The position numbers and the translations under genes are program-made. The notes beneath the pieces are model-generated. The model saw only the letters and a program-made list of their open reading frames with translations, was not told where the DNA came from and did no database searches. DNA of 64,000 nucleotides from Actinomycetota bacterium. GTDB lineage: Bacteria > Actinomycetota > Acidimicrobiia > Acidimicrobiales > AC-14. Below are positions 5,945-33,219 of this stretch, in pieces (the first letter of the stretch is position 1; each line of letters begins with the position of its first letter). The stretch spans positions 1-64,000 of the forward strand of contig JBFMCT010000014.1 of NCBI GenBank assembly GCA_040754375.1, written 5' to 3'.

Positions 5945-5957
5945 TGTGTAACATCTT

Positions 5958-10878: not shown

Positions 10879-10880
10879 CC

Positions 10881-11168: not shown

Positions 11169-11171
11169 GTC

Positions 11172-11602: not shown

Positions 11603-11610
11603 GGGCCGCC

Positions 11611-11769: not shown

Positions 11770-11943
11770 GAAGTTCCAAGAAATCGTCGTTCGGCGGTAC
11801 ACGCGGATTCGGCACTTTGACTCATGTCGTGGATTCCAGTCCACGGTACAACGACCTTAGGGGTGCCTGTTGCTGGCCGAGTCGACTTCGTACGGCTGCC
11901 AGCGTGGAGCGAAATCAACGAACGAAAGGAGGGGTGAATACAC

Positions 11944-12144: not shown

Positions 12145-14390
12145 TGGCCGAGCTCGTCGCTCTCCTGTCGTCAGCCGTCTTCCTGGGCGCCAGCCTGCTC
12201 CTGGTTCGCTGGATGGAGCAGAAGCGCCTGCGGGCGGACATGGTCGCGTACCGGGTGCAGTACCCGGAGGGTCTTGATGTCGCAGCCGTCATCGCTTTCC
12301 TTTCCGGACTGGGCGGCCTCTTGCGCCCTTGGCGCGTTCGGCTGTTCGTCCGGCCGGTCGTCACCTTCGAGGTCACGGCCAAGTCGGCGGCCATCACCCA
12401 CCACCTCATCGTCCCCCGCTCCCTGGCCGACCAAGTGCTGGGGCAGTTGCGCGCTGCCGTGCCGGGTGCGGTGGCCTGGCTCGACGCCGAACATCGCCCG
12501 GCTCGCCCTGACCTGGCCGGCGAACTGGTGCTGTCGTCGCTCTTGCAACCTCTCAAGACCGATCAGCCGTCGGCCGCCAGTGCCGCCATCCTGGCCAGCC
12601 TGGTTCCGCTGCAGGCCGGCGAGTCGGTGGTGATGCAGTGGATCTTGACGCCGGCCCCGCCGACCGGACCATCGTCGTCGACCACCTCGACCAAGCCGTC
12701 CAACTTGTTCTTGAAGGCGGTCAGCCCGGTACGTCCCCCGGTCACCGCCCGAGAGGCTCGGGAGAAGGCAGCCGGATCCCGGTTCTGGGCCGTCGGACGC
12801 ATTGGTGCGGTGGCCTCGCCAGCGCGGGCTCACTCGCTCCTACGTCAGCTCACCGGCTCGTTCCATTCAACCAGCGCCCCGGGCGTTCACTTCCGCCGCC
12901 GCCGTCTTCCATCGGCTGAGTTCGCTCGCCGCATGGTCGCCGGGGCCGTACCACTGGCCTCCTGGCCCTGCCTATTGACCGCCCGGGAGGCTGCCATCGT
13001 TGTCGGCTTCCCACTCGGGAGCCCCAACGTGGCCGGCCTGGAGCTCATTGACCGGCCGCCGCTGCCGCCCTCGAGCCTCATCCCGGCCGAGGGCCGCGTC
13101 ATCGCCCAGGGGAACTACCCCGGCAAAGAGCGGCCGTTGGCCCAAGATCTGGAAGCCGTCCTCCGCCACACCCTGGTGCTCGGCCCCACCGGTACCGGCA
13201 AGTCCTACGCCGCGGCCGGCATGATCCTGCGTGACATCACCGCCCCCGATCGCCGGGCCGTCATCGTCATCGACGCCAAGACCGACTTGGTCGACCTGGT
13301 GCTCGACCGCGTACCGGCGGACCGGGCCGAGGACGTCGCCGTCCTCGATCCCACCAGTGACCGGCCCCTCGGCCTTGATCCGCTGGCCCATGCCACCAGT
13401 CATCCCGAGCTGGTGGCTGACCAGACGTTCGGCATCCTCAAGCGTCTCTGGGAGCTGAAGGCTGCACCCCGGACCTTGGACCTGTTGCACGCCGCTCTCC
13501 TGACGCTGGCCCACACCCCTGGTTCGGTCCTGCCGGATCTCGCTCCCTTGCTGCTGGACTCCGGCTACCGCCGCCGCCTGGTCGGCCCCCTGATGGGCGA
13601 CTTGGCCCTCGGTCCGTTCTGGGCGGGCTACCAGGGCATGTCCGAGACCGAGTGGGCACAGGTGGTCGCACCCCTCATGACGCGCCTGCGCCAGTTCCTG
13701 CTCCGCCCCACTCTCCGGGCTGTCATCGGGCAGTCCCGGCCCCGCCTGACCGTCACCGACGTCATGGCCGGCGGTCAGGTGTTGCTCGTCCCGCTGGCCG
13801 CCGGTCGGCTTGGCCAGGAAGCGGCCAGCTTGCTCGGAGCGCTGCTGGTGGCCGACCTCTGGATCACCACCCAAGCCCGCGCTGTGTTGCCGGCAACTGC
13901 GCGGCCGCCGGTCAGCGTCTTCATCGACGAGTGGCAGACCATCATCCATCTGCCCACCCCGCTCGAGGAGGTCCTGGCCCAGAGCCGCGGCTACCGGGTC
14001 GGCTACACCCTGATCAACCAGCACCTCAGCCAGCTGCCTCCCGGCTTGCGTGAGGCCGTCCTGGCCAACGCCCGCAGCAAGGTGTCATTCGCCCTGCCGC
14101 CGGCTGATGCCGCCGTCATGGCGCGGTCGTACGGCGAGCCCGTCCGAGCCCGGGACTTGGAGCGACTCCGACGCTACGAGGTCATGCTGCGGCTGGTCGC
14201 TGGCTCCACCTTGGCGCCGCCCACCACCGGGTTCACCTTGTCCCTGCCGGCGGCTACCGGTCACGGCTCTGCCATCCGTGATCGGTCAGCCACCCGCTAC
14301 GGCCGTCATCAGGATGAAGTTGAAGTTGATCTGCGTGCTCGGCAGACGGGTCCCGGCCCTGGCCCACTGGGCAAACGGAGGCGGTCATGA
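12141..14390 (+). CDS. TraG/VirD4-like conjugative coupling ATPase
   Basis: 749 residues. The N-terminus carries a hydrophobic segment (VALLSSAVFLGASLLLV) and a region with beta strands. A Walker A motif GPTGTGKS lies near residue 347, with an Asp-rich strand VIVIDAKTD just after it. The Walker B-like strand VSVFIDEWQ is near residue 590, followed by QSRGYRVGYTLINQHLSQLP, typical of VirD4/TraG/HerA-type DNA-pumping ATPases. It would couple element DNA to a transfer channel. No other type IV secretion genes are visible, so transfer may be of the simplified actinobacterial kind or need a helper. Confidence 0.75.
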   Translation: MMAELVALLSSAVFLGASLLLVRWMEQKRLRADMVAYRVQYPEGLDVAAVIAFLSGLGGLLRPWRVRLFVRPVVTFEVTAKSAAITHHLIVPRSLADQVLGQLRAAVPGAVAWLDAEHRPARPDLAGELVLSSLLQPLKTDQPSAASAAILASLVPLQAGESVVMQWILTPAPPTGPSSSTTSTKPSNLFLKAVSPVRPPVTAREAREKAAGSRFWAVGRIGAVASPARAHSLLRQLTGSFHSTSAPGVHFRRRRLPSAEFARRMVAGAVPLASWPCLLTAREAAIVVGFPLGSPNVAGLELIDRPPLPPSSLIPAEGRVIAQGNYPGKERPLAQDLEAVLRHTLVLGPTGTGKSYAAAGMILRDITAPDRRAVIVIDAKTDLVDLVLDRVPADRAEDVAVLDPTSDRPLGLDPLAHATSHPELVADQTFGILKRLWELKAAPRTLDLLHAALLTLAHTPGSVLPDLAPLLLDSGYRRRLVGPLMGDLALGPFWAGYQGMSETEWAQVVAPLMTRLRQFLLRPTLRAVIGQSRPRLTVTDVMAGGQVLLVPLAAGRLGQEAASLLGALLVADLWITTQARAVLPATARPPVSVFIDEWQTIIHLPTPLEEVLAQSRGYRVGYTLINQHLSQLPPGLREAVLANARSKVSFALPPADAAVMARSYGEPVRARDLERLRRYEVMLRLVAGSTLAPPTTGFTLSLPAATGHGSAIRDRSATRYGRHQDEVEVDLRARQTGPGPGPLGKRRRS

Positions 14391-18572: not shown

Positions 18573-20666
18573 ATGAGCCAGTCACCGTCGCCCCAGCCGA
18601 TCGCGGCCTTGCCGGAGGCCTTCACCAAACGGGCGGTCATCTACTTGCGCGTCTCCACCGCCAAGCAGGTTGGCACCGATGACGTCGACCCGGACGGCTA
18701 CTCCATCCCTGCGCAGCGCGACGCCTGCCGGCGTAAGGCCGAGGCTCTCGGGGCTGAGATCGTCGAGGAGTTCATCGATCGCGGCTCCAGCGCCAAGACC
18801 GCTGACCGCCCGCAGTTCCGACGCCTGATCAGTCGGGTGACGACCGAGCGCGACATCGACTACGTCATCCTCGACAAGATCGACCGCTTTGCCCGCAACC
18901 GGCGCGACGACGCCAATCTGTTGTTCGAGTTGCGCCAGGCCGGCGCCGAGCTGGTCTCCGTCAAGGAGAACATCGACGAGACGCCGGCCGGCGTCCTGCT
19001 GCACGGCATCTTGGCCACGATGGCCGAGTGGGAGAGCCGCACTAACGCCGCCCGCACTCTGACGGCCATGACCCAGAAGGCCAAGGGTGGCGGTACACCA
19101 GGCCGCGCACCCGTCGGCTATCTCAACGTTCCCCGTCGCATCGACGGGCGCGAGGTCCGCGTGGTCGCCGTTGATCCTGAACGCGCTTCGCTGGTGCAGT
19201 GGGCGTTCGAGGCCTATGCCACGGGCCAGTACACAGTTCGGTCGCTGCACGAAGCTCTTACGGCCAAGGGCCTGCGTACCCTCCCGCAGGGGAAGGGCGT
19301 TCCCGGACCGATCCCGCCGAGCGGCGTCGCCAAGCTCCTCAGTAACCGCTACTACCTGGGCTACGTCTCCTTTCGAGGCGTTGAGTACGACGGCAGGCAT
19401 CAGCCGCTGGTCTCGAGCGTGTTGTTTGACCAGGTGCAAGAGATCCTGCGCTCCCGCCGGACGGCCGGCGAGAAGCAACGGGTGCATCACCACTACCTCA
19501 AGGGCACCGTGTTCTGCGGCCGCTGTGGCAGCCGGCTGTGCCTGACCAATGCCAAGGGCCAATACCTCTACTTCTTCTGCCTCGGCCGCCACCAGCGCCG
19601 GACCGACTGCCAGCAGCCTTACCTGCTGGCCGCCGACGTCGAGGCATCTGTGGAACGCTTCTACCGCCACGAGCGTCTGTCCGACGAATTGCAGACCGTC
19701 ATCCGAAACGGCGTCCTGGGGGAGCTGGAGCGACAGCGCCAGCACAGTGGCCCGGAGATCGCATGGGCCAGGCGGCAGGTCGAGAACCTGGCAGCCGAGC
19801 GGCGGAGGCTTGGCCGCGAGACCGTCAAGGGGAACATTCCGGGTGACCTCGCCCGGGAGGAGCACGATCGGATCGACCGTGAGCTTGCCGATGCCCAACG
19901 CATCCTCGCAGCGGCCGAAGCCGTGTCGTCCCACATCGAGGCCAATCTGGATCGGGCTGTCGCCCTGCTCGGCCGCGTTGATGAGATCTACCGGCAAGGC
20001 GGCCCCAAGATCCGCCGCCTGTCCAACCAGTTCTTGTTCGAGAAGCTGCTGATTCGGGAGCGCGAGGTCGCCGACGCCGTCTACCGCGAACCGTGGGCAA
20101 CACTGCGGAGCGACCAGCTTGTCGCCAGTCTGAGGGAAAACGCACGAAACCCCGGCCGTCGTTCTGTTGGCCAGGGTTCGAAAATGACTCTCTTGGCGCC
20201 CCCGGGAGGATTCGAACCTCCGACGCACGGTCTAGGAAACTCGCTGGACGTGTCGCGTTGCGCGCAAGGAGACGCGAAAAGGCTGGTCAGAGCGTTGCGC
20301 TCGCGCAGGGAGTCCCGTCCTGCGCATTCGATTTCGTGCTCGAGACGGGCAACTGGATGGGCAACTCTTGGGCCATCGACGTGCGGGTCCAAGCCCGGGT
20401 TCGACGCCCGAGACCCGCGCGCGGACGGGCAGCTCGCGCCCTCGCGTCGCCGCCATGCAGGGTCGTTGCGCCCCAGAGCGCCGGTCCCGAAACCGTGCGT
20501 CACGCCGCAATCGAGGGTCTTGCCCATCTGCCCTGCGCGCGCGAGGTCTGTGACCTGCACCGTTGCGGTCCACGGCTGCCCATCCACTCTTGTCACGTGG
20601 CGGCGAGGACCAGCGGCGCCCAGCGCGCATGCCCATCCCTGCCCAGGCCGGGGTCGATGCCCGTGA
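18573..20666 (+). CDS. Large serine recombinase, C-terminus fused across an att site
   Basis: 697 residues as it stands. The resolvase catalytic domain starts at RAVIYLRVSTAKQ (active Ser28), with DKIDRFARNRRDD and the E-helix AEWESRTNAARTL following. Next come the recombinase domain (GRAPVGYLNVPRR), a Cys4 zinc ribbon (CGRCG...C...C) and a coiled-coil region near residues 390-450. After residue about 536 the frame enters the tRNA-Arg 3' fragment (LAPPGGFEPPTHGLGN) and continues about 140 residues through foreign DNA antisense to the metallophosphatase gene. In an uninterrupted insertion it would have read GLGNRRSIL and stopped inside the tRNA. The functional enzyme is probably the first ~540 residues. 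Confidence 0.85.
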   Translation: MSQSPSPQPIAALPEAFTKRAVIYLRVSTAKQVGTDDVDPDGYSIPAQRDACRRKAEALGAEIVEEFIDRGSSAKTADRPQFRRLISRVTTERDIDYVILDKIDRFARNRRDDANLLFELRQAGAELVSVKENIDETPAGVLLHGILATMAEWESRTNAARTLTAMTQKAKGGGTPGRAPVGYLNVPRRIDGREVRVVAVDPERASLVQWAFEAYATGQYTVRSLHEALTAKGLRTLPQGKGVPGPIPPSGVAKLLSNRYYLGYVSFRGVEYDGRHQPLVSSVLFDQVQEILRSRRTAGEKQRVHHHYLKGTVFCGRCGSRLCLTNAKGQYLYFFCLGRHQRRTDCQQPYLLAADVEASVERFYRHERLSDELQTVIRNGVLGELERQRQHSGPEIAWARRQVENLAAERRRLGRETVKGNIPGDLAREEHDRIDRELADAQRILAAAEAVSSHIEANLDRAVALLGRVDEIYRQGGPKIRRLSNQFLFEKLLIREREVADAVYREPWATLRSDQLVASLRENARNPGRRSVGQGSKMTLLAPPGGFEPPTHGLGNSLDVSRCAQGDAKRLVRALRSRRESRPAHSISCSRRATGWATLGPSTCGSKPGFDARDPRADGQLAPSRRRHAGSLRPRAPVPKPCVTPQSRVLPICPARARSVTCTVAVHGCPSTLVTWRRGPAAPSAHAHPCPGRGRCP

Positions 20667-20971
20667 TCGGGCGAGCGCCGATGCGAGCGACGACGTGCCG
20701 CCGCACCCGGTCGATGTCGCAGTGGTCCGCGAGACTCGTGGTTGCCGACGAGCTGCACCCACCGGTCGGGTGCGCGATTGTGCAGTCGGTCAACGCATGC
20801 GATCAGCCGCGCCGACTCGTCGCTTCGCCCGATGAGGTCGCCGACCTGTACGACGACGGTGCCCGCCGGCACTTCGCTCTCCGACACGCAGACATCGAAC
20901 GGCGCGAGCACCTCGTCGAGCGCAGTCAGGTGTCCGGCGACGTCGCCGACCACGAGAAGCGTCGTTGCCAT
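20081..20971 (-). pseudogene. Calcineurin-like metallophosphatase fragment
   Basis: The first ~80 residues are a clear metallophosphoesterase N-terminus: GDVAGHL (GDxxGH), VVQVGDLIGRSDES (GDxxxRG-like) and QLVGNHES (GNHE). After that the frame becomes Arg/Pro-rich and carries none of the later His motifs. It then runs antisense through the att copy into the recombinase gene. The other two frames do not supply a convincing continuation, so the gene appears frameshifted or truncated at the element's left end. It starts 4 bp after the upstream AbiEi-like gene on the same strand and was probably its operon partner. Confidence 0.6.
20196..20240 (+). repeat. attachment-site copy: 3' part of tRNA-Arg
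   Basis: 45 bp identical to 33146-33190 except one base (C here, T in the intact tRNA at 33182). It covers the acceptor 3' strand, T-arm and most of the anticodon arm on the minus strand, but lacks the 5' half, so it is not a tRNA gene. It forms the left end of the tyrosine-integrase element and the right end of the serine-recombinase element. Confidence 0.9.
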
Positions 20972-20974
20972 CGG

Positions 20975-21874
20975 CTATGCCTTGCCCACGAGCTCTTGCA
21001 GCGGTGCGACCAATCGATCAACGACGGCGTACTGCGACACCCACTGCTTACGGCGATCTCCCCGCATGGCGCTCGGGTGTTCGAACGTCACCTTCGGCAT
21101 CGGTCCCGCTGGCCGGCGCGCCAGCAATGCCATCGCGCGCTCGGGCTGTCCGCCGGCGTGCAAGAGGTAGGCGGCGCGCTGCCACGCCGACGCCGTCTGC
21201 GCGACGAGCAGTCGCGCGAGCTTGTCGTCGTCGCAATCGTCGACCACCTGCTCCAAGTGGGCGACCAGGTCGGCCCACGGCATGAACGACGCCGGTCGCG
21301 CGCTGAGCTGAATGACGAGCGCCTCGGGACCGAAGGCCGGCAGTCCACCCGACCAGTTGACGAGGTCGAGTCGGCGACGAGCGAGGAACGCCGTGCTCGG
21401 ACGCACGTCCGCCAGCGGCGCCAGGCCCCACTTGATCGACACCACCGACACGTGAGGCCGTAGGCCGTCGGGAAGGCGGACGTTCGCCTGCTTCCACACC
21501 GAGATCCGCCCCTCGCTCCTTCGGCCGAGGTAGCCGAGGTGCCATGCTGCCGCCTCCCCGGCAAGCAGGAACTCGGCCTGTTCGTCGCGCGCCTGCCACG
21601 CCCGCAGCGGCAGGTACGGGTCCGCCACCGACGCCTGGCCCGGAGGCACGAACGTCCAGGTGCCCTTCACGGGCAAGGCGACCAGCCAGCCCAGCCGGCG
21701 GAGCTCGGCGATGGTTGCCGCCGCGTCTCGGTCGAGGCGGAGGTCGGCGGACCGCTGCGCGATGTCCTCGTTCGTCACCACTGCCGGCCGGTCGCGAGCC
21801 AGCTGCCCGACGAGCGCGCTTGCCCAGCCAGGGATCCGCCGATCGACCCGCGCAGAGCTGGCGGTTGAGTTCAC
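20975..21874 (-). CDS. AbiEi-like antitoxin/transcription factor
   Basis: About 299 residues from GTG (VNSTASSARVDRR). A TACGAT seven bases before this GTG would give a leaderless mRNA; an ATG at 21910 is the alternative start. A winged-helix N-terminus (VTNEDIAQRSADLRLDRDAA, then RRLGWLVAL) is followed by a region with AEFLLAGEAAAWHLGYLGR and VSVVSIKWGL, the layout of AbiEi-type antitoxins of type IV toxin-antitoxin systems. It is divergent from a second AbiEi-like gene with a nucleotidyltransferase partner and is followed by a metallophosphatase fragment. Confidence 0.65.
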   Translation of the reverse strand: MNSTASSARVDRRIPGWASALVGQLARDRPAVVTNEDIAQRSADLRLDRDAAATIAELRRLGWLVALPVKGTWTFVPPGQASVADPYLPLRAWQARDEQAEFLLAGEAAAWHLGYLGRRSEGRISVWKQANVRLPDGLRPHVSVVSIKWGLAPLADVRPSTAFLARRRLDLVNWSGGLPAFGPEALVIQLSARPASFMPWADLVAHLEQVVDDCDDDKLARLLVAQTASAWQRAAYLLHAGGQPERAMALLARRPAGPMPKVTFEHPSAMRGDRRKQWVSQYAVVDRLVAPLQELVGKA

Positions 21875-22004
21875 TGCGGAAATCGTACCAGAACCGTCGT
21901 TTATCCGCATCAGAGCTAACCGCCCCCGCGGGTGACAGGCCAGTCGACTACCGCTACTATTCGGTCTACAGCAGTTTTCACAACTCACTGAATGGTGCCG
22001 CAAA

Positions 22005-23063
22005 GTGAAACTAGCCGTCGAACTGGATGAGGACGTCGCCGTGCCCGTTCGACGCGCCCTCGAGAGCATCCGAGACATCAAGGTCGTCGACGGCGTCGAA
22101 CACCGGATCACGGTGGATGGCACCGAGCGACCGATCGTGATCTTGCCCCGTCCCCGTCGTGGCCCGGCGGGCGATTTGGAGGTCGACGTCGCCGACCTCG
22201 TGCGTCGTGTCCCTCCCGATGCGGTTGGGCTCGTGGTGGCAGGCACGATTCCCGCCGCGGAGCGCGAGGCCCTCGAGCGCGCTGGGTTGTCGTGGTGCGA
22301 CGGCCGAGGCGCGATGCATCTGGCGTGGCCCGGGACCTACGTGCACATCGACCGGGGCAGCCGTCGACCGGAGCAACCCAAGCCCAAGGGAACCCAGGGC
22401 ATCGGGCCGGCGAGCATCAGGGCGGTGCAGGTCCTCCTCGGCAGCGACCAGGAGGCCTGGACGGTGAGCCAGCTCGCCCAAGCTGCGGCAGTCTCCGTGG
22501 GTCAAGCACACACGGTGTTCCGAGTGCTCGAACGGAACAACCTGCTGCGCCGTGAGGGAAAGGGCCCGAGTCAGCGGAGCACCGTCCCTGATCGCCGAGC
22601 GGCCCTCGACTGGCTGCGAACCGTTGATCGCGCTCGGCGTCGGCCCGCGGCTGCCGCCACGTATGTCTATGGAAGGACGCCGGATGACGAGATGCGCAAC
22701 TTCGCCGCGCTCGCCGACAAGGCCGGCCTGCCATATGCCGTGACGGGCGCCGCCGCGAGCAACCTCATGGGCATCCCCGTCCTCACGCGCGTACCCGTCG
22801 CGCACGTGCGCGTGGGTGTGCTCGACGCGCCCGATGCACTGCATCGTCTCGGGCTGGAGCACCTCGACGCCCAGGGTCCTGCCAGCGGCATGAACCTGGA
22901 GCTGTGGACCGATGTCGGCGAGCTCGGCACCTTCGGCGCGCAGGAGCGGGACGGCGTGAAGGTTGCGCCGCCGGTCCGCGTCTGGCTCGACATCGCGCGC
23001 GAGGGCGGCCGCGGCGAGGATGCCGCGCAGCTGTTCAGGGAGGCGATCCTTGAGCGAGCCTGA
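22005..23063 (+). CDS. AbiEi-family antitoxin, type IV toxin-antitoxin
   Basis: 352 residues from GTG. The N-terminal ~120 residues are an alpha/beta region with a conserved-looking GLVVAGTIPAAERE block. It is followed by a winged helix (EAWTVSQLAQAAAVSVGQAH, VLERNNLLRREGKGP) and a C-terminal domain ending PVRVWLDIAREGGRGEDAA, a signature seen in AbiEi-family proteins. It would repress its own operon and counter the nucleotidyltransferase encoded by the next gene, whose TTG start lies inside its last codons (14-bp overlap). Confidence 0.75.
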   Translation: MKLAVELDEDVAVPVRRALESIRDIKVVDGVEHRITVDGTERPIVILPRPRRGPAGDLEVDVADLVRRVPPDAVGLVVAGTIPAAEREALERAGLSWCDGRGAMHLAWPGTYVHIDRGSRRPEQPKPKGTQGIGPASIRAVQVLLGSDQEAWTVSQLAQAAAVSVGQAHTVFRVLERNNLLRREGKGPSQRSTVPDRRAALDWLRTVDRARRRPAAAATYVYGRTPDDEMRNFAALADKAGLPYAVTGAAASNLMGIPVLTRVPVAHVRVGVLDAPDALHRLGLEHLDAQGPASGMNLELWTDVGELGTFGAQERDGVKVAPPVRVWLDIAREGGRGEDAAQLFREAILERA

Positions 23064-23940
23064 CGGTCAGCACATCAGCGGCTACGACGCGCACGTCGCG
23101 GAGCAGCTCGTGGCGGAGGCCGCCGACCTCGTGCGATCGCTCGGGTTCGCCTCCGCTCATGTGGTCCTCATCGGAGGAATCGTCCCGGGATTGCTCGTGC
23201 CGGTGCTCGACCCGGGGATCGAGCCGCACGTAGGAACCGCGGACATCGACCTCTGCCTGAGTGTTGCTCTCGTCGAAGGGGCGACGGACACCTACGAGCG
23301 GATCGAGACGGTGCTGAAGCGGCTCGGGTTCGCGGAGACGGACGCGTCGTTCCGGTGGCGGCGTAGCGATGGGCTTCCGCTGACGATCGAGTTCTTCTGT
23401 CCCGCCGACGACACCCGACCGGCCGGGCGCGCGTTCCGGCCGTCCGCGAGCGACAACCCGACTGGCAAGCACAACCTCGGCGGTCGGCTCTCCGCGCTCG
23501 CGCTGGGCGCAGGCGACCTCCTGACCACTGACGTTGAGGTCGTTCGGCGCGAGGTGAACCTCCCCGGCAATAAGGGAACCCTCGTCGCCGAGCTCCGCGT
23601 GACCGGGCCCGTGGCGTTCCTCGTCGCCAAGTCACAGGCACTGGTCGGCGCGACTGCGCGGGACAAGCCGAAGGACGCCTACGACATCGTCTGGCTGATC
23701 GAGAGCTGGCCCGGAGGAGCGCGCGCTGCGGCCGCCGACTTCGCTCGATGTCCGGCGTTCGATCGACCCGAGGTTCGCACCGCGCTGCAGGCGATCGGAG
23801 ATGCCTTCGCCGGCCCCGATCGCATCGGATCACGCTCGTACGCCCGGTTCGTCGCTGCCGCGCCTGAGGACGAAGCCCAGCTCGAGCGACGCTCGGTAGG
23901 CGCAGTGCGCGAGTTCCTCGACGCGCTCTCTGGGTCGTGA
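23050..23940 (+). CDS. AbiEii-like nucleotidyltransferase toxin candidate
   Basis: About 296 residues from a TTG start overlapping the antitoxin gene. The nucleotidyltransferase core is visible: HVVLIGGIVPGLL (glycine loop), then HVGTADIDLCLS (Gx(T/S)xDxD metal-binding pair) and LPLTIEFFCP as the third acidic strand. The later helix KPKDAYDIVWLIESW (KDxYD) is typical of the AbiEii/DUF1814-like group. AbiEii-type toxins transfer nucleotides, blocking growth on phage infection or loss of antitoxin. Overlap with the AbiEi gene supports a functional pair. Confidence 0.75.
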   Translation: MSEPDGQHISGYDAHVAEQLVAEAADLVRSLGFASAHVVLIGGIVPGLLVPVLDPGIEPHVGTADIDLCLSVALVEGATDTYERIETVLKRLGFAETDASFRWRRSDGLPLTIEFFCPADDTRPAGRAFRPSASDNPTGKHNLGGRLSALALGAGDLLTTDVEVVRREVNLPGNKGTLVAELRVTGPVAFLVAKSQALVGATARDKPKDAYDIVWLIESWPGGARAAAADFARCPAFDRPEVRTALQAIGDAFAGPDRIGSRSYARFVAAAPEDEAQLERRSVGAVREFLDALSGS

Positions 23941-23950
23941 ATCTTCGCAG

Positions 23951-25116
23951 CTACTGGTCCGTTTCGACGGCCCGCAGGTGTCGACGCGGTGCGGGGTCGT
24001 GCCCGGTTCGCTGGCGACACAGCCGGGTGAGGTGGTCGACGTGCCAGCCGCCGCCGACGATGGCCGCACCGTATACCTCGGCGGCGAGGTCGGGCTTGCC
24101 AGCGCCGACGGCTGCCTCGCCTAACGCGTCGACTGGCATCCACCACTCCGCTCGCAACCTCTCGGCCGCTACCGCGAACCGGTCGAACGAACGGGTGGCC
24201 ACCGCCAGCCATGCGATGAGCTGGAGCGCCTCGTCGGCCTCGTAGTCGAGGCGGTGCGACCGGTGCTCGGCTGCGAGTTCGAGGAGGAGACGCTCGACTC
24301 TCTCGACGTCCGCCTCGCGGGCTCCGAGGAATGGTGCGGCGTCGCGGCGGTGGCGGATGCCGTAGTCCTCCCAGATGCACCACTCGCAGAGGTCGGCCCA
24401 GTAGACGGCCGGCTCGATGCCCGTGTCCCGCCAGGGCAGCGAGGCGTAGGTCTCGAGAGCGTCTCCGAGGAAGGTGCCGACGGCGCCGTCGGAGTCGCGC
24501 AGCCCACCAAGGAATGCTTCGAGCCCGGCGGTCAGGACTGCCCGCCAGAGGGCCAGCTGCCGGGGCGGGGTCGCCGGCACCGTCCTCGTGCTCCTCGGCG
24601 GTGATGGCCTCCAGCGCGGTGGCCAGCCGGAAGCTCCGGCGCTCGCCGTCTACCAGGTCGGCGAAGTGGGCGTAGTCCTCCTCGGGCGATACCGGGAACA
24701 ATGGCCAGTGGCCGCGCAGGGCGCGCTCGCGCAGCCGTCGGCGCGGCGTGTCCTCCATCGCGGGGGTGAGGTCGCGGCCGGCGAGCTCCTGGTCGAGCAC
24801 CTTGCGCCGCGCCTTCGTCCGCAAGGCCTTGTCGTCGAGGTGGTCGGCGGCGAGATCGGCCGCGGTTAGGCCGGCCGCCTCCAGCCGGCCGAGAAGGTCG
24901 AGCAGATGGCTGCGCTTGCGCTCCCACACCCGACTCGTTACCGACCGCTGGCGGTCCCGGGCGATGATCGCCTCCTCCAGCGCGTCCCAATCGCCGTCGG
25001 CCTCGGTGACGCACAGCAGGCAGAACCACAGGTCCCAGTGCGACCAGCTCTCGCGGGCGTGCTCAGCCCACGGCTCGGGCCCGAAGGTCGGCGGCCTCCG
25101 CGTACCCACGATCAAC
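23951..25116 (-). pseudogene. Unknown gene with a single frameshift
   Basis: Two reading frames together make one ~390-residue protein. From a TTG start (25116, overlapping the previous stop as TTGA) the first frame encodes an aromatic, helical region (HARESWSHWDLWFCLLCVTE to LATALEAITAEEHEDG). Near 24580-24600 coding quality switches to the second frame (PATPPRQLALWRAVLTAGLE, YWADLCEWCIWEDYG), which ends at 23951. The first frame continues with Arg/Pro-rich nonsense and no stop. A one-base indel near the GACCCCGCCCCGG run would explain it, either real or a sequencing error. Alternatively the GTG near 24580 starts a second gene. No family recognised. Confidence 0.5.
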
Positions 25117-26443
25117 CCGAGATGCTCGACCGCGGCCCGGTGGCGCGCTGGTGGAGGCACTCGAGCGCGAGCGCCTGGCCCGCCGGCGTGAGCGCGTAGC
25201 TGCGGTCGTCCCAACCGCCACCGGTCGACAGGACGTCGAGGGCGCGCAGCAGGTTCGTCGTCTGGTGCCACGCCCAGCTGATGTCGTGCTCGGTCGGCGG
25301 CTGGCCGGTATCCGTTGCCCGCCACCCGACCTCGGCGACGATGTCACGGAGGGTCTCGTCGAGCTCGCTGGTGTGCACCTCGCGCTCGACGAGCAGCGCG
25401 AGAGTGAGCTCGCCGAGCGCGGCGGCGAACTGGTGGTCCGGCAGCAGCCCTCGGGCAGCCGTTCGCAAGAGCAGCTCGGCGTCGCCAAGCGCCGCCCGGC
25501 CCTTCGGCGTGAGCGCCAGCTTCCGTCCGGACCGGCGGGCGAGCCCAAGGCGCTGGGCGAGGTGGCGGAGCTGGTGGAGGTCGAACAGCTCGTCCTCGGT
25601 ACGGGGCGGGTTCTTGAAGTCCCACCCGAACCGTGGCGCTGCCTCTTGCACGAAGGCCCGGCTGAGGTTGCTGGTCTGGGTCAGCGGCTGACCGTCGGCG
25701 AGCTCACCCAGGAACCACCGCAGCCGCGGCAGCGGATCCTCGATCCCGGCGGGCATCGCGGCCGGTGCCCGCACGGTGGCGGCGAGTGGTTCGAGGATGC
25801 GGCGGCGGGTGGCGCTGCGGCGGTGCGGGTCGAGCCACGTGTCGAGCCGCTCCTCGGCGATGCCGTCGAGCCAGGTCCGGCCGCCCAGCTCGATGCGCGG
25901 GGTCGTGAGGTGCGCCCGCACCAGGTCGGCCTGGCGTTGCTTCCACCCCCGAGCGCCGGGGACGAGCTCGCCGCCAGCGATGGCCAGCTCGAGCAGCTCG
26001 GCCGTCGACGACAGCGCGTCTGACTCGACCATCCCCATGACCGCGCCCCACTCGAGCTCGTCGATGTCGGGGGGCTGGATGCCCGAGGCGAGGTCGGCCT
26101 TGCGGAACGCCTTCTTGCCCTCGGTGTCGCTGCGCTCGTAGGCGTCGAGCACCTCGGCCGTCGTTGACGACCGGCACAGCGCCGCGTACCGGGGGAGGCC
26201 GAGCAGGTCGAAGGCACGGCCGAGCGCGTCGACGATCCGGCGGTGGTGGTCGGTGTCGGTCAGCCACTTGATCGGCAGCCCGTACCAGAGGAAGTGCTGC
26301 AGCCGCTCCTGGGTGATCACACCCAGGCCCTCACCCCACGTGAGCGACTGGAGCGCGGCCTCGGCGTCGCGGGCGGCGCCGGCGTCCTCCGCATCGAGCT
26401 TGGCGATGGCGTCGGTGATCAGCGGATCCTCGTCGTCGGCCAT
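25112..26443 (-). CDS. Unknown protein with two winged-helix-like segments
   Basis: 443 residues from ATG (MADDEDPLITDAIAKLD); an upstream extension is proline- and serine-rich and less likely. Mostly helical. Two segments end like winged helices: LHQLRHLAQRLGLARRSGRK with LALTPKGRAAL, and LLRALDVLSTGGGWDDRSYA with LTPAGQALALE. Its stop overlaps the start of the next gene (TTGA), so they form a two-gene operon. The upstream 490 bp holds repeats. No function assigned; it may be element-specific DNA binding or a defence accessory. Confidence 0.55.
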   Translation of the reverse strand: MADDEDPLITDAIAKLDAEDAGAARDAEAALQSLTWGEGLGVITQERLQHFLWYGLPIKWLTDTDHHRRIVDALGRAFDLLGLPRYAALCRSSTTAEVLDAYERSDTEGKKAFRKADLASGIQPPDIDELEWGAVMGMVESDALSSTAELLELAIAGGELVPGARGWKQRQADLVRAHLTTPRIELGGRTWLDGIAEERLDTWLDPHRRSATRRRILEPLAATVRAPAAMPAGIEDPLPRLRWFLGELADGQPLTQTSNLSRAFVQEAAPRFGWDFKNPPRTEDELFDLHQLRHLAQRLGLARRSGRKLALTPKGRAALGDAELLLRTAARGLLPDHQFAAALGELTLALLVEREVHTSELDETLRDIVAEVGWRATDTGQPPTEHDISWAWHQTTNLLRALDVLSTGGGWDDRSYALTPAGQALALECLHQRATGPRSSISG

Positions 26444-26479
26444 GCGGACCAGTCTTCCGCGCGGCGGCACCCTCACGAG

Positions 26480-26740
26480 GCGACTCATGGACGCCGGCCC
26501 CGAAGCCCCAGTACGGCTCACGGAGGGCGGGAAACCCCAGGTCAAGCGGCTCATGGATCAGCGTGCGTCACGGCGCCGCCGAGCCCCCGGTGGACCGCCA
26601 ACCGGCACGTCCGTGAGCGCCCCCGCTCGCGGCCATGAGTCTCATCGACGAAGAAATTCCTGATCCATGAGCCCGTTCATGAGCTGCGTCCCGCACGGTG
26701 CCCGGGATGGCCGAGAGGTTTCCCGTTTCATGGCCTGACC
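26480..26740. repeat. Dispersed TCATG/CATGA inverted repeats, candidate cis site
   Basis: The 489-bp gap 26444-26932 has no gene. It contains a perfect 14-bp inverted repeat (GGCTCATGGATCAG at 26548-26561 and its complement at 26660-26673) and further CTCATGG/CCATGAG copies near 26484, 26633, 26676 and 26729. This arrangement is what an origin of transfer, replication or excisionase-binding region looks like. Confidence 0.5.
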
Positions 26741-26845
26741 AGGGAGTTCCCGGATGAATCCCGGGCTCGCGGGCCGCCGTCCGGGACAGCCCCCACGCCG
26801 TCCCGGACGGATCCCGGACGCCCACCGGGATCCCGGGATCCGGAC

Positions 26846-26887
26846 GGGACGCGAACAGGAACGCGAACGGGAACGGAAACGGGAAAC
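26846..26887. repeat. Purine-rich hexamer tandem repeats
   Basis: About seven consecutive hexamers of the form GGAACG/CGAACG/GAAACG lie just before the excisionase-like gene. They are preceded by interleaved TCCCGGACG direct repeats and nested GGATCC/CCCGGG palindromes. Iteron-like; probably part of the same cis-acting region. Confidence 0.5.
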
Positions 26888-26932
26888 CGATCCGGACCAT
26901 CTCCTCCATCCCTGCCATCGAGAGGAGGTCCG

Positions 26933-27202
26933 ATGGGACGACGCCGCTGCGAGCCGGTGATGCCGGCTCGTGATCCCGCCCGGCGGCCGCCGGCCGAGAC
27001 GTCGCTCGTTTACACGGTCGCCGAGGTCGCCGAACGGCTGAAGGTCTTGCCCGGGACGGTCCGCAACATGATCGACCAGGGCCAGCTCTACGCCCTGCGG
27101 CTCCACGTGCGCCGCATCGTGGTGCCGAAGTGGGCCCTCGACGAGCTCGTCGCCCGGCCCTCGCCGGTGATCGACCTGCCCCGCCGCGCCAGCAATGGCT
27201 GA
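26933..27202 (+). CDS. Excisionase-like helix-turn-helix protein
   Basis: 89 residues with GAGAGGAGG upstream. A MerR/Xis-type winged helix is visible: YTVAEVAERLKVLPGTVRNM then IDQGQLYALRLHVRRIVVPK and ALDEL. It overlaps the helicase gene by 8 bp. In integrated elements such proteins bind att sites and direct the tyrosine integrase toward excision, or regulate the downstream operon. Confidence 0.75.
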   Translation: MGRRRCEPVMPARDPARRPPAETSLVYTVAEVAERLKVLPGTVRNMIDQGQLYALRLHVRRIVVPKWALDELVARPSPVIDLPRRASNG

Positions 27203-29540
27203 GCCGGCCACCCCACCGGCGCACTGGGCTTCCCCCCAGCTCACCGCCGGCGCCGTCGAGCGCCTCTACGACCACCTCACCGGACCGCACGGCCTGACCG
27301 AGCGCTCCTCCACCTTCACCCGCCGAGACATCGTCCAGCAGATCGCCGCCGCCGTCGGCGCATCGGCGCCGGCGCCCGAGGTCGAGCGCCTGGCCGACCG
27401 GTTCCTCGCCTCCGAGCGCGTCGTGCTCCTCGCCGGCCCGACCTCCGGACGCAACTCCCAGGTCCTCATCGGTCTCGACAACCGCCGCATCCGCACCGGC
27501 GGCACCGCCGTGTTCAGCACACCCGAGCTGATCGAGATCGAGACCGGGCTCCTCACGTGGGCGACCACACGACAAGGAGCGGTCGCCGGCTCCGCGATCG
27601 AGGGCACGCTCGCCCGCCACCCCGAGCTCTCCGGCGAGCAGGCCGAGATGGTCCGCTCCGTCTGCTCGACGTCCCGAGCCATTCAGGTCGTGGTCGGGCG
27701 CCCCGGCTCCGGCAAGACCTACGCAACCGCCGCCTGCGTCGAGGCGTTTGCCGCGGCCGGCGCGCCGGTCGTCGGCTGCGCCGTGAGCGCAACCGCCGCT
27801 GCCGAGCTGGAGGCCGCGGTCGGGTTCGAGCGGTACACGCGCCGGCCGGCGCAGACCATCGCCAGCCTGCTCATCGACCTCGAACAGCGCGGCGACCACT
27901 TCGCACCCGGCACGATCGTCCTGATCGACGAGGCGTCGATGGTCGGGACCCGCGAGCTGGCCCGGCTCGCCGCCCACGTCGACCGAGCGGGCGGCGCGAT
28001 CAAGCTCATCGGAGATCCCGATCAGCACACCTCGGTCGACACCGGTGGCGTCTTCAAGGCCCTCGCCAGCCGAGACGACCCGACCGTCGTCCGGCTCGTC
28101 GAGAACCGGCGCCAGTGCGAACCCGCCGAGCGTCTCTCCATCGACGAGTACCGACGAGGCGACGTCGCCGGTGCGCTCGACCGGTACGACCGAGACGGCA
28201 AGGTCCACCGCGGCGACAGCGCAGCCGATACCTACGACGCGCTCGTCCGTGACTGGTGGGCCGACCGCTGCGCCGGATCAGCCTCGCCGATGCTCGCCGG
28301 GACCAACGCCGCCCGGCGTGCCCTCAACGACCGGGCCCGCGCGCTCCTCAAGGACGAGGGCGTCCTCACCGGCGAGCCGCTGGTCGTTCATGGGCGTGAG
28401 CTCCTGGTCGGCGACGAGGTCGTCGCCCGCCGCAACGACCGGTCGCTGCACGCGCCCGGCCGGGCCGAGTTCGTGAAGAACGGGAGCGTTGGCCGCATCG
28501 TCGCCATCGACCACGACCGTGGTGAGGTGGCAGTCGCCTTCGATCGAGAGGGCACTGTTCACGTCCCGCACGAGTACCTCGCCGCCGGGCATCTCGAGCA
28601 CGCCTACGCCCGCACCACCTACGCGGTCCAGGGAGCGACGCTCGACCGAGCCCGCTACCACCCCTCGGACGCATCCCGGTTCGAGGAGGGCTACGTCGCC
28701 ATCACCCGCGCCACCGACGAGACGCACCTCTACGTCGTCCACGGCGAGCTCGACCTCGATGACGAAGACGACCCCCGAGCGATCGAGCCGGACGCGGCCG
28801 GCTTCGACACCGTCGTCGACGCGCTGAGCCGTCGCAGCGACGAACAGCTGGCCGCCGAGATGGACCCGCTCGCCACCGAAGCGTCCCGCCTCGCCCGCTC
28901 CGGCACCCTGCAGCAGTTGAACGCCCGCCTCCGGCAGCTCGACCGGATCCTCTGCGAGCAGCCACCGCCCGTCACCGAAGAGCTCACCCGGTCCCGGCGC
29001 CGGCTGGAGTTGCTCCACCAACGCCGCGAAGCGATGGAGCAGCGACGCCAGTCCTGGAACCCGCGCACCCGCCGGCAGCAGACGAAGGCCTTCACCTCGC
29101 TGGAGGAGGTCATCGGGCGTGCGACCGACCAGGTGGCAGAGCTGCACGCGCGGCAGGCCGCCCACGAAGAGTTCGCGGCTGAGCACCGGGCGGAGTTCGA
29201 CGAGCGGCGCTTGACCGCCTTGGCCATCTCCGCCCGCCGCCTCGCCGTCCGTATCGCAGCGGTCGCCGATCCGACACCTGCCATCGTCGACCTGCTCGGG
29301 CCGCGCCCCATGTCCCAGAGAGACCGCCTCCGCTGGGATGGCGCCGTCGAGAACCTCGTCGCATACCTGGACGAGCGAGGACGAAGGTGGCCCGACAACG
29401 CGGCCTCCCTGACAGACCTCCTCGGCCCCAGGCCCGAAGGGGCCTTGGAGCAGTTCGAGTACGACCGCATCCTGAAGACCCTTCACCAGGCGATCGACCC
29501 ACCGGAACGAGAGACCGGCCGCGGGCTCTCCATCGCGTGA
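27195..29540 (+). CDS. MobF-relaxase-type helicase lacking the relaxase domain
   Basis: 781 residues. A RecD/TraI-like SF1 helicase: GRPGSGKTYATAA (Walker A, near residue 170), TIVLIDEASMVGT (Walker B, DEAS), KLIGDPDQHTSVDTGG (motif III) and LVENRRQ (motif IV), then AYARTTYAVQGATLD and YVAITRATDETHLYVV (motifs V/VI). The first residues (LTERSSTFTRRDIVQQIA) match the region that in MobF relaxases follows the N-terminal TrwC nicking domain, which is absent here, as is its histidine triad. Helical Arg/Glu-rich C-terminus. It could unwind element DNA in replication or be a decayed relaxase. Confidence 0.8.
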   Translation: MAEPATPPAHWASPQLTAGAVERLYDHLTGPHGLTERSSTFTRRDIVQQIAAAVGASAPAPEVERLADRFLASERVVLLAGPTSGRNSQVLIGLDNRRIRTGGTAVFSTPELIEIETGLLTWATTRQGAVAGSAIEGTLARHPELSGEQAEMVRSVCSTSRAIQVVVGRPGSGKTYATAACVEAFAAAGAPVVGCAVSATAAAELEAAVGFERYTRRPAQTIASLLIDLEQRGDHFAPGTIVLIDEASMVGTRELARLAAHVDRAGGAIKLIGDPDQHTSVDTGGVFKALASRDDPTVVRLVENRRQCEPAERLSIDEYRRGDVAGALDRYDRDGKVHRGDSAADTYDALVRDWWADRCAGSASPMLAGTNAARRALNDRARALLKDEGVLTGEPLVVHGRELLVGDEVVARRNDRSLHAPGRAEFVKNGSVGRIVAIDHDRGEVAVAFDREGTVHVPHEYLAAGHLEHAYARTTYAVQGATLDRARYHPSDASRFEEGYVAITRATDETHLYVVHGELDLDDEDDPRAIEPDAAGFDTVVDALSRRSDEQLAAEMDPLATEASRLARSGTLQQLNARLRQLDRILCEQPPPVTEELTRSRRRLELLHQRREAMEQRRQSWNPRTRRQQTKAFTSLEEVIGRATDQVAELHARQAAHEEFAAEHRAEFDERRLTALAISARRLAVRIAAVADPTPAIVDLLGPRPMSQRDRLRWDGAVENLVAYLDERGRRWPDNAASLTDLLGPRPEGALEQFEYDRILKTLHQAIDPPERETGRGLSIA

Positions 29541-29612
29541 CGCCATGAAGGCGTCACGCTCGTCTCGTACCGTGGATGAGATGCACGGCGAGACCAGCTG
29601 CCAACACGCAAC

Positions 29613-30707
29613 GTGACGACGACCGAACCCCGAGCGACGCTGGCCGCCCCTGAGGTGGGGCAGCTCGTCCGCGTCCGCGATCGGCACTGGGTCGTGAGCG
29701 ACGTCGCCGCGTCCGCGCTCGACGACGGCGGCGCCCAACACCTGCTCGAGCTCACCTCGGTGGAGGACGACGGTCTCGGCGACGAGCTGAGCGTCATCTG
29801 GGAGATCGAGCCTGGGACGGCCGTGCTCGAGACGGCCACACTCCCTCAGCCGCAGGCCGACCGCTTCGACGACCCGGAACGGCTCGATGCCTTCCTCGAC
29901 GCCGTCCGGTGGGGTGCGATCACCTCCGCCGACAGCCGCGCCCTGCAGGCACCGTTTCGGTCCGGCATCACGATCGAGGACTACCAGCTCGATCCGGTCG
30001 TGCGGGCGCTGCAGATGCCGAGGGTCAACCTCCTCATCGCCGACGACGTCGGGCTCGGCAAGACCATCGAGGCCGGGCTCGTCGTCCAGGAGCTGCTGCT
30101 GCGCCACCGAGCCCGCACGGTCCTCGTGGTGTGCCCTGCCTCCCTCAGCCTGAAGTGGCAGAGCGAGATGGCCGACCGGTTCGGGGGCGAGGAGCAGGTG
30201 TCTGTGGTGTGGACCGGTCCAGCAAGCTACGAGGTGCCGGTGCGAGCGACGAGCGCCGTGCTCGCCGAGGTGATCGAGGAAGCCAGGAAGAGCCTCATCG
30301 TCGTCAGCTTCGCGGCGTACAAGGTGGTGACGATCGTCGAGGCGCTCAAGGCCGCCGCCGACCGAGGCGTGGATGTCCGGCTCATCCTCGAGTCAGTCGT
30401 CGAGTCGAAGGGCAACCTGACCCACGACGCGAAGGAGGCGTTCGACGCCCTCGGCGACACCGTCTCGTTCTACGTGTGGCCAGCCGAGCTTCGTGCCTCC
30501 GCGAGTGGCGGTCACGCCGCGATGCACGCCAAGTGCGCCGTCGCCGACGGCCGCGTCGCCTTCGTCACCTCAGCGAACCTCACCGGCGCCGCGATGACGG
30601 ACAACATGGAGCTTGGCCTCGTCGTCCGCGGTGGCGACGTGCCAAGACGCATCGCCAACCACTTCAACGCTTTGATGAAGAACGAGCTACTGAAGGTGCT
30701 GGATTAA
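29613..30707 (+). CDS. Chimeric DISARM gene: DrmD N-terminus fused to DrmC PLD domain
   Basis: 364 residues. Residues 1 to ~190 (QLVRVRDRHWVVSDVA, FLDAVRWGAITSADSRALQA, IEDYQLDPVVRALQMPRVNL) and the SNF2 Walker A ADDVGLGKT followed by VLVVCPASLSLKWQSEMADRFG match the start of the class 1 DISARM helicase DrmD, normally about 1,000 residues. From ~195 (VWTGPASYEVPVRATSAVL) it becomes the DISARM phospholipase D-like protein DrmC, with MHAKCAVADGR (HxK...D), TSANLTGAAM and NMELGLLV-like NMELGLVV. The junction lies near 30184-30205, in frame. A deletion would have removed the rest of drmD plus the methylase, drmA and drmB. It is followed 2 bp later by the next gene. Confidence 0.8.
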   Translation: MTTTEPRATLAAPEVGQLVRVRDRHWVVSDVAASALDDGGAQHLLELTSVEDDGLGDELSVIWEIEPGTAVLETATLPQPQADRFDDPERLDAFLDAVRWGAITSADSRALQAPFRSGITIEDYQLDPVVRALQMPRVNLLIADDVGLGKTIEAGLVVQELLLRHRARTVLVVCPASLSLKWQSEMADRFGGEEQVSVVWTGPASYEVPVRATSAVLAEVIEEARKSLIVVSFAAYKVVTIVEALKAAADRGVDVRLILESVVESKGNLTHDAKEAFDALGDTVSFYVWPAELRASASGGHAAMHAKCAVADGRVAFVTSANLTGAAMTDNMELGLVVRGGDVPRRIANHFNALMKNELLKVLD

Positions 30708-30709
30708 TC

Positions 30710-31183
30710 ATGGCCATCGAGGAGGAAGAGGCCCGGGCGCTATACGCGGATCTGCGAGCGTCGGTCGCAGCCATTGACCAACTGCGGTGGATCACCGATG
30801 ACGTCGATGCCCTCGTCCAGCAGGGTGTCGAGGAGCGTCGGCAGGTCTTGCTCGAGGCGCAGGAGCCGGGACGTCGACGAAAGCGTGAGGCCGTGAAGGC
30901 CTCGCGTGCTTACCTGCCGAGCGAGATGCTACGGCTCCTCGTCGACGCGGTTGAGCGTGCGGTGGTGCAGCCGATTGACCTCGTTCGAACGACCTTGAGT
31001 GCGTTGGAGGAGGCCGCCGGGTTCGAGGTTGAATTGGAGTTCCGGCCCGACTCCGTGGAACTCGTGGGATCCATCGGCGACCGGGCAGGCATGGTTGTTA
31101 GCCGCGAGATGCTCGTCGAGGCCTCTGAACGAGTAACGGCGCTTCGTGAGCTGATCACCGAGTTTCGCCGGGAGCTCGAGTGA
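30710..31183 (+). CDS. Helical protein between DrmD-DrmC chimera and nuclease
   Basis: 157 residues from ATG, two bases after the chimera's stop. Long charged helices (VQQGVEERRQVLLEAQEPGR, ASERVTALRELITEFRRELE) suggest coiled-coil oligomerisation, with a short beta segment (FEVELEFRPDSVELVG) in between. The stop overlaps the GTG of the PD-(D/E)XK gene (GTGA), so the two are translationally coupled and probably form a complex. No family recognised. Confidence 0.6.
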   Translation: MAIEEEEARALYADLRASVAAIDQLRWITDDVDALVQQGVEERRQVLLEAQEPGRRRKREAVKASRAYLPSEMLRLLVDAVERAVVQPIDLVRTTLSALEEAAGFEVELEFRPDSVELVGSIGDRAGMVVSREMLVEASERVTALRELITEFRRELE

Positions 31184-31857
31184 CGAAGGCGAACGAGTTG
31201 CTCCAGAAGATCAAGCAAGCTCTGCCAGGAGCCGTAACGCCAAGTCTCACCACCAAGGACGCATTGTTCGACCTGTACGAGGCGTACATCTTCTCGCGGT
31301 TGATCGTCGCCGCTCAGCAGGACCACTACGTCGTCTCGTTCCGGACCGGGACGACAGGGCCGTTACCCATCGTCGCTGGCCGCCGTCGACTCGTGCTGCG
31401 TCGCGGACCCGGTGTCATCTGGTCTCCCGATTTCGCACATGCCCTCCTGGCGCATTCAGGTCAGGCCCTTCTCGAGGTCCACATCGGGATTCGCGGTGAA
31501 GGGCAGTCCGGAGTGACCCATGAATGCGATGTCTCCGCTATTCGCACCGATGAGTGCGACGAAGCTCGTCGTCAGTCCTTCCATCCGAGAGCGCGTGCGA
31601 TCGTGATGGCCTTCGAGTGCAAGTACTACGACACCGATCTCACGCTTGGTCTGCTTCGTGAGTTCCTCGGGTTGACGACCGACCTTCGTTCACAGAACAC
31701 ACAGTCGTGGCTTGCGTCAAACGTCTCCCACGGTGAACTGCCGGCGCTCTTTCGTCACCACCACCGACGATGGACGGACGAACTCGTTCCCAATTCGGAT
31801 GCCGAGCGTCGATTCGTTGGTGTCATCGAAGACGAGCTTCACCGGCTTCGCCGGTAG
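31180..31857 (+). CDS. PD-(D/E)XK-type nuclease, probable defence effector
   Basis: 225 residues. The N-terminal helix with a conserved-looking Glu (DALFDLYEAYIFSRLIVAA) is followed by beta strands, then THECDVSAIR (Asp position) and AIVMAFECKYYDTDLTLGLL (ExK), the order of the PD-(D/E)XK core E...D...ExK. Such folds occur in restriction enzymes and in antiphage effectors. It is the last gene of a tight operon with the DrmD-DrmC chimera and the helical protein. Target unknown; the call rests on motif pattern alone. Confidence 0.6.
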   Translation: MTKANELLQKIKQALPGAVTPSLTTKDALFDLYEAYIFSRLIVAAQQDHYVVSFRTGTTGPLPIVAGRRRLVLRRGPGVIWSPDFAHALLAHSGQALLEVHIGIRGEGQSGVTHECDVSAIRTDECDEARRQSFHPRARAIVMAFECKYYDTDLTLGLLREFLGLTTDLRSQNTQSWLASNVSHGELPALFRHHHRRWTDELVPNSDAERRFVGVIEDELHRLRR

Positions 31858-31866
31858 TGCCTGGCA

Positions 31867-33042
31867 TCACCGCGGGCTGGGCGTCGATCCGTTACTAGCC
31901 AGCAACGCCCCGAGAGCGTCTGCCGCGCGCTCGTCTGCTGCCTGAAGGAATTGGGCGTAGAAGTCGAGGGTCGTCGATGCGTTGGCGTGACCGAGCCGGC
32001 CGCTGACGGTGCGGATGTCGATGCCGGCCGACAGGAGCTGCGTGGCGCTGAAGTGGCGGAGGTGGTGGAGCTTCACGCCGTCGAGGCCGAGCTCGTCGCG
32101 CAGGCGGCCGAAGGCGAGCGTCGCGTAGTTCGGGCGCCAGGGCTTCGTGAAGTCGACCTCGTGCGAGAACAGAAACGAGTTCGACGAGATCGAGGTTCCG
32201 CACTTCGTCGCCAGCTCAGCGCAGGCTTCGCGGTGAGCGACGAGCAGCGCCGTCGTTTCCTCGTCGATCGTGACCTTCCGGACCTGGTGGGTCTTCGTGT
32301 CCTTCTCGATGAGCTCACCGCCGACCTCGGCCATGCTGCGGGCGATCGTCACCCGGCGCTTCTCGAGATCGATGTGCTTCCACCGCAGCGCGCACAACTC
32401 GCCCCGGCGCGCGCCGGTGGCCGCTGCCAACCGGAAGTAGGCCGGCAGGTAGGGGTTCACCTTCGCCGCCGCGTCGATCAGCCGGGCGACGTCGGCGGGA
32501 TCGGGTAGCTCGGAATGCTGCTTCTTCGACCGCGGCGGCGACGCGTTGGCCGCCGGGTTGACGGTGAGCCACCCCCACTTCACGCCCTGGGCCAGCGTCC
32601 GCCGGAGGACAGCGTGGGATCGCATCACGGTGTTCGGCGCCAGCGGCTTCCCGCCGGCGGCACCGGAGCGGCGTAGCTCCGAGTACCACTGGTCGAGGTC
32701 GGCTGTGCGCAGCCGACGCAGCGGCATGTCGGACCAGCGGGGGAGGATGCGCCGGTCGAGCAAGCGCCGGTACTCCGCGGCGACCGCCGGCGAGAGGTCG
32801 GGCGCGGCGTGGGAGTACCAGCGCTCGCACAGCTCGCCGACGGTGCCCGCGCGCACGGCGTGCTGGCCGTCCTCGATCTCACCGAGCAGCCGGCCGAGCG
32901 CGACCTCGGCATCACGGCGCTCGCCGCGGACGGTTCGGGTGACGTAGCGCTTCTTCCCCGTCTCGGCGTCCTTGCCGGCGAAGGCGCGGATCTCCCACGA
33001 CTGCTTCCCCCGCTGGCGGATCGACCCGGCCACGAACGCCAC
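31867..33042 (-). CDS. Tyrosine site-specific integrase
   Basis: About 391 residues from GTG (VAFVAGSIRQRGKQSWEIRA); an ATG 45 bases upstream is possible. It has an AP2-like N-terminal arm-binding domain (IRQRGKQSWEIRAFAGKDAE) and a SAM-like core-binding domain. The catalytic domain shows ATGARRGELCALRWKHID (Arg), HHLRHFSATQLL (HxxR), GRLGHANASTTLDFYAQF (His and nucleophile Tyr). It lies about 100 bp from the intact tRNA-Arg and so catalyses integration there. Convergent with the nuclease gene, with a 9-bp gap. Confidence 0.9.
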   Translation of the reverse strand: MAFVAGSIRQRGKQSWEIRAFAGKDAETGKKRYVTRTVRGERRDAEVALGRLLGEIEDGQHAVRAGTVGELCERWYSHAAPDLSPAVAAEYRRLLDRRILPRWSDMPLRRLRTADLDQWYSELRRSGAAGGKPLAPNTVMRSHAVLRRTLAQGVKWGWLTVNPAANASPPRSKKQHSELPDPADVARLIDAAAKVNPYLPAYFRLAAATGARRGELCALRWKHIDLEKRRVTIARSMAEVGGELIEKDTKTHQVRKVTIDEETTALLVAHREACAELATKCGTSISSNSFLFSHEVDFTKPWRPNYATLAFGRLRDELGLDGVKLHHLRHFSATQLLSAGIDIRTVSGRLGHANASTTLDFYAQFLQAADERAADALGALLASNGSTPSPR

Positions 33043-33145
33043 CGTACCGCGATCGGATGGGCAAGAGTAGTTGAACTGGATGGGCAAGTCGCCCTCCGAG
33101 CCAGCCGGCCAACTGCAGAAATGGCCTCCTACCTGCTAATTTGCA

Positions 33146-33190
33146 GCGCCCCCGGGAGGATTCGAACCTCCGACGCACGGTTTAGGAAAC
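33146..33190 (+). repeat. attachment site in intact tRNA-Arg
   Basis: Right-hand copy of the 45-bp repeat, lying inside the intact tRNA. Differs from the left copy at one base. The integrase-side sequence reconstitutes the tRNA 3' end, so the tRNA stays functional after integration. Confidence 0.9.
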
Positions 33191-33219
33191 CGACGCTCTA
33201 TCCTCTGAGCTACGGGGGC
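33147..33219 (-). tRNA. tRNA-Arg (anticodon CCT)
   Basis: A full cloverleaf on the minus strand: acceptor GCCCCCG pairing with CGGGGGC, D-arm GCTC...GAGC, anticodon loop TTCCTAA (CCT in the middle), T-arm GGAGG-TTCGAAT-CCTCC. No encoded CCA. It serves as the integration target of the element to its left. Its first 10 bases overlap the 3' end of the bisphosphate nucleotidase gene, which takes its stop codon from the tRNA. Confidence 0.95.

Follow-up and report, generated by a model that had tools for sequence, protein, structure and literature searches.

A DrmD-DrmC chimera on a tRNA-Arg-integrated element, probably derived by deletion from a class 1 DISARM operon

The open reading frame at 29613-30707 of the window (the whole stretch of 64,000 nucleotides that was analysed) lies on the + strand, begins with GTG, is open throughout and encodes 364 aa, in which the N-terminal ~191 residues of DrmD, the helicase of class 1 DISARM, are followed in frame by the last ~170 residues of DrmC. 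We consider this chimera, which sits on a 13-kb tRNA-Arg element, to be what a recent in-frame deletion left of a class 1 DISARM operon, without DISARM activity, and we give this reading a probability of roughly 0.74. The chimera is ordinary in kind and neat in detail.

The chimeric frame and its two halves

A preliminary description of this DNA had proposed a DrmD-DrmC chimera at these coordinates, and the open frame together with the profile matches to both families confirms it. The NCBIfam profile DISARM_DrmD (NF038317) aligns its positions 2-179 of 1021 with chimera residues 13-192 (E 1.2e-93), at a score under the full-protein cut-off, as is expected of a fragment. The profile DISARM_DrmC_I (NF038319) aligns positions 58-235 of 236 with residues 176-355 and, at 201 bits, exceeds its cut-off of 133. 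PADLOC recovers DrmD (1.8e-98, residues 5-192) and DrmC (1.6e-60, residues 179-361). The joint was mapped by alignment with ~100 DrmD and 20 DrmC sequences, and it falls between residue 191 (...EMADRFG) and approximately residue 195 (...QVSVVWTGP). The last DrmD-like residues are RFG (189-191) and the first clear DrmC-like residues are QVSVVWTGP (195-203). The corresponding interval, ~30183-30197, agrees with the 30184-30205 given earlier.

29613..30185, + strand: DrmD-derived half, residues 1-191 (PADLOC and NCBIfam matches, 76% identity to the DrmD of an intact locus, motif check)
30186..30707, + strand: DrmC-derived half, residues 192-364 (PF13091 E 8.1e-21, NF038319 above its cut-off, Foldseek matches to Nuc/NucT)
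30183..30197, + strand: junction (alignments to the DrmD and DrmC sets)

The DrmD half retains the N-terminal domain and helicase motifs I and Ia. Motifs II-VI of the full-length SNF2 protein have been lost; an intact relative has motif II at residue ~264, well past the point at which the DrmD sequence of the chimera ends. The Walker A motif reported previously is present as DDVGLGKT at residues 144-151, and the HxK...D motif, also reported as intact, is found in the DrmC half as HxK(x)4D...SxN at residues 305-322. The structure model is of low confidence over residues 90-178, the truncated RecA lobe, although the alignment behind it was shallow, with only four DrmD rows. Rows from plasmid records were left out of the alignments used for the structure models.

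The DrmC half contains a complete PLDc_2 domain (PF13091, E 8.1e-21) with the HKD motif HAKCAVAD...SAN, and by this motif and its score over the NF038319 cut-off it belongs to DrmC. It differs from other members at its N-terminal side, where ~75-80 DrmC residues are absent and profile positions 1-57 are unmatched. The helical (4HB, Cas11-like) domain of this region, a four-helix bundle present in most DrmC proteins (PMC12458937), is therefore missing from the chimera, and a DrmD fragment stands in its place. The PLD fold of this half is predicted with confidence, and both sequence comparison and Foldseek structure comparison relate it to the Nuc/NucT nucleases. These single-HKD PLD nucleases have the fold in common with the chimera, although the identity is only ~20% and the chimera has an N-terminal extension of ~195 residues. 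Two copies of such a PLD domain might in principle pair to build the two-HKD site and retain cleavage of nucleic acids.

Probable origin from a class 1 DISARM operon

Among all of the sequences read, the nearest relative of both halves is a single locus, G451:C111. This locus, from an actinobacterial MAG, carries an intact class 1 DISARM, and the identity to it is 76% for the DrmD half and 55% for the DrmC half. The trees of the two halves place the chimera near this locus and are poorly resolved; therefore, it is identity and gene order, and not supported branching, that speak for a shared origin of the two halves. The two halves are components of class 1 DISARM (DrmD, DrmMI, DrmA, DrmB, DrmC) and occur in the order of its first and last genes. 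The full operon is found in the intact relatives in G451 and on plasmids of Rhodococcus, Nocardia and Deinococcus, whereas DrmA, DrmB, the methylase, most of DrmD and the DrmC N-terminus are missing here, and the locus is not a working DISARM. In G451:C111, 12,594 bp lie between the equivalent break points; in G451:C223, a second locus of the same genome, the distance is 12,371 bp. Therefore, a single internal deletion would explain the chimera. There is good support for viewing the locus as a collapsed class 1 DISARM: both halves derive from the same kind of locus, the core genes are missing from the assembly, and the relatives have an interval of 12.4-12.6 kb between the equivalent points.

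According to this model, one deletion of ~12.4-12.6 kb would have removed the rest of drmD, all of drmMI, drmA and drmB, and the start of drmC. One end point would lie just after DrmD motif Ia and the other at the start of the DrmC PLD domain, and the remaining ends of drmD and drmC would have met in frame by chance. The parts are identified by comparison, and from the relatives we infer the deletion event and its end points; no parental DISARM locus was found for this lineage.

DrmA and DrmB have no match on any contig of this genome, and the same queries matched both control genomes; the G451 DrmB and DrmA queries also matched a third genome, G730, strongly. The core pair of class 1 DISARM is thus absent. 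There is no DrmMI methylase at the locus, and the sole DrmMI-like match in the genome is distant and partial (42%) and comes from a different contig, where it falls in a frame of 1305 aa. We conclude that this genome has no class 1 DISARM. DrmAB is the described core of the system, and DrmC has been reported as dispensable and as not co-purifying with that core (PMC9142583). Because the DrmA/DrmB core, the methylase and a complete SNF2 motor are all lacking, the locus cannot act as DISARM, given the known roles of these parts, and most likely none of the system's function is left.

We also considered whether pieces of the system lie elsewhere in the genome, as they would after a misassembly or in a split locus. 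This possibility was rejected, because DrmA and DrmB were absent and the second DrmD-like match, on contig C51, belongs to a different pair formed by an SNF2 protein and a large helicase next to an integrase. At 3918-14357 of that contig, an SNF2-type helicase of 1014 aa, with 40% identity to the start of DrmD, and a helicase of 1750 aa stand beside a tyrosine integrase. Judged on its sequence features, the pair looks like a different, Druantia/Dpd-like defence pair.

The host element and the downstream genes

The chimera sits in a 13-kb element integrated at a tRNA-Arg gene (~20196-33190), which has a tyrosine integrase beside the tRNA and direct repeats at its flanks.

20196..20240, + strand: attachment repeat (direct-repeat match to 33146-33190)
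26933..27202, + strand: excisionase-type HTH protein (TIGR01764, HTH_17)
27195..29540, + strand: TraA/MobF-like helicase, 781 aa, without a relaxase domain (TIGR02768 positions 259-721 only; best relatives MobF/TraA relaxases)
29535..29559, + strand: 10-bp GC-rich hairpin between the TraA-like gene and the chimera (-21 kcal/mol, z -4.4)
30710..31183, + strand: P2, 157 aa, no family and no relative found (starts 2 bp after the chimera)
31180..31857, + strand: P3, 225 aa, possible PD-(D/E)xK nuclease (overlaps P2 by 4 bp)
31867..33087, - strand: tyrosine integrase of the element (PF00589, E 1.9e-23)
33146-33190: attachment repeat at the tRNA end (45-bp direct repeat, 44/45 identical with 20196-20240)
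33146..33219, - strand: tRNA-Arg(CCT), the integration target (ARAGORN)

The presence of DISARM on such an element is not unique, because two other class 1 drmD loci (L037 and L046) carry an integrase and a TraA-like stretch upstream. The TraA/MobF-like gene overlaps the excisionase gene by 8 bp and may be another gene of the element that has been truncated. At 20975-23940, the same element encodes a protein with an AbiEi-like antitoxin domain (PF09407) and has a weak AbiEii-like match, a possible type IV toxin-antitoxin pair. The frame of a large serine recombinase (18573-20666) crosses the attachment repeat at 20196-20240, which suggests neighbouring or nested mobile elements.

The chimera had been described as part of a tight operon. 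This description holds for the downstream side, where P2 starts 2 bp after the chimera and P3 overlaps P2 by 4 bp, and fails for the upstream side, where a 72-bp gap contains a strong GC hairpin. The hairpin has no T run and is a possible terminator. Neither P2 nor P3 matched any known family. P3 has HExD...ExK residues in common with a Sphingomonas plasmid protein (29%), and its structure model (pLDDT 45) is too poor for use. The Sphingomonas protein lies close to CBASS-like genes (ThiF, MPN, SAVED). We rejected the view that P2 and P3 are ancestral DISARM accessory genes, because no relatives of them occur near any DISARM locus read.

Constraint, recurrence and alternative explanations

Neither half of the chimera has decayed. 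None of 67 DrmD sites is broken (columns with conservation of 93% or more among DrmD sequences), and 1 of 33 DrmC sites is broken (columns with 85% or more among DrmC sequences), the lowest count among the 15 sequences compared. Neither tree gives the chimera a long end branch (0.074 and 0.44), and the third-position GC is coding-like in both halves (0.91 and 0.87). Therefore, either the deletion is recent or the protein has been maintained; long, free decay is ruled out, and the data fit a recent deletion as well as they fit selection. Pairwise dN/dS counts against two intact loci were 0.17/0.81 and 0.25/1.02 for the N-terminal half and 0.39/1.03 and 0.45/1.43 for the C-terminal half, and they resemble the counts between the intact loci themselves. 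Because these values mostly record the history before the fusion, we dropped them as evidence of selection on the chimera.

A second chimera was not found in 60 relatives, in 396 genomes of the phylum or in 395 genomes of the class (partly overlapping sets, ~850 whole-genome searches). A contig scan of 84,980 species yielded 326 loci, and among the best 80 of these the matches reach residue 196 at most, and none has a chimera-like drmC stretch in the DNA examined; the scan detects only contigs with a perfect copy of at least one of six 8-residue peptides, and a distant chimera could escape it. The 7 loci on viral contigs likewise contain no second chimera, and no plasmid or phage record covers 80% of the chimera query. 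The fusion is thus seen in this genome only, an outcome that the preliminary description had itself named as grounds for refutation. Its suggestion of an expressed chimera with a new role gains no positive support. The open frame and the conserved residues are equally expected of a recent deletion.

Three other accounts of the locus were considered beside the recent deletion. The genome is a 105-contig assembly with an estimated completeness of 97.5%, and drmD and drmC might have been wrongly joined with the middle of the operon dropped. However, the dropped genes drmA and drmB are on no contig, and the break regions of the related loci have at most 7 bp in common, which leaves no obvious repeat to cause a wrong join. 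Moreover, the junction is in frame and inside a 72-kb contig. The short common sequence around the break points and the absence of the dropped genes from all other contigs make a false join unlikely. In contrast, a more plausible, although still tentative, proposal is compatible with the deletion remnant and refines it: a useless chimera whose frame is kept open since P2 and P3, being coupled to it, depend on ribosomes passing through. The 2-bp gap before P2 and the 4-bp overlap of P2 with P3 are consistent with such coupling, and the upstream hairpin suggests a separate transcription unit that starts near the chimera. However, P2 could have its own start signals, and a promoter scan, which covered sigma-70-type sites only, found nothing.

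The remaining account takes the chimera to be an expressed and selected stand-alone PLD nuclease, in which the N-terminal domain of DrmD replaces the helical bundle of DrmC and which works with the two downstream genes. The in-frame joint, the intact HKD motif, the near absence of broken conserved residues, the confident PLD fold related to Nuc/NucT and the 2-bp spacing to the next gene all speak for it. However, the chimera recurs nowhere searched, the downstream genes stand beside no other DISARM locus read, the truncated RecA lobe is modelled at low confidence (though from only four DrmD rows), and DrmC is described as dispensable and outside the DrmAB core (PMC9142583); we therefore regard this account as improbable. 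Slightly less credence still is given to its fullest form, in which the deletion of a multi-gene defence system produced an expressed two-domain protein, with the DrmD N-terminal region steering an orphan DrmC nuclease, that would serve with the two downstream genes in minimal defence or element maintenance. If the protein were shown to work, its function would have been born of the collapse of a multi-gene immune system.

We therefore return to the recent deletion, which would have occurred recently enough that both halves are undecayed; the frame may be open simply on account of its youth, or it may also have been kept open by the downstream genes, which apparently share its message for their translation. 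In this case, one deletion apparently reduced a large defence operon of a mobile element to a single chimeric frame that is still open, an example of how new domain combinations can arise from defence loci. Annotation that relies on domains could register such a remnant as DrmD or as DrmC.

Other drmD loci are disrupted as well. In two loci from MAGs, drmD ends early (L072) or has an internal deletion (L073), and the search rows for G154, G587, G705 and G766 contain internal stops or short frames in drmD; some of these disruptions may be contig ends or assembly errors. They resemble the chimera in the truncation or internal deletion of drmD, and unlike the chimera, none is fused to drmC. In another actinobacterial DISARM (L029, apparently the same contig as G730:C138), a frame of ~2,400-2,500 codons runs on from drmD and is possibly a drmD-drmMI fusion.
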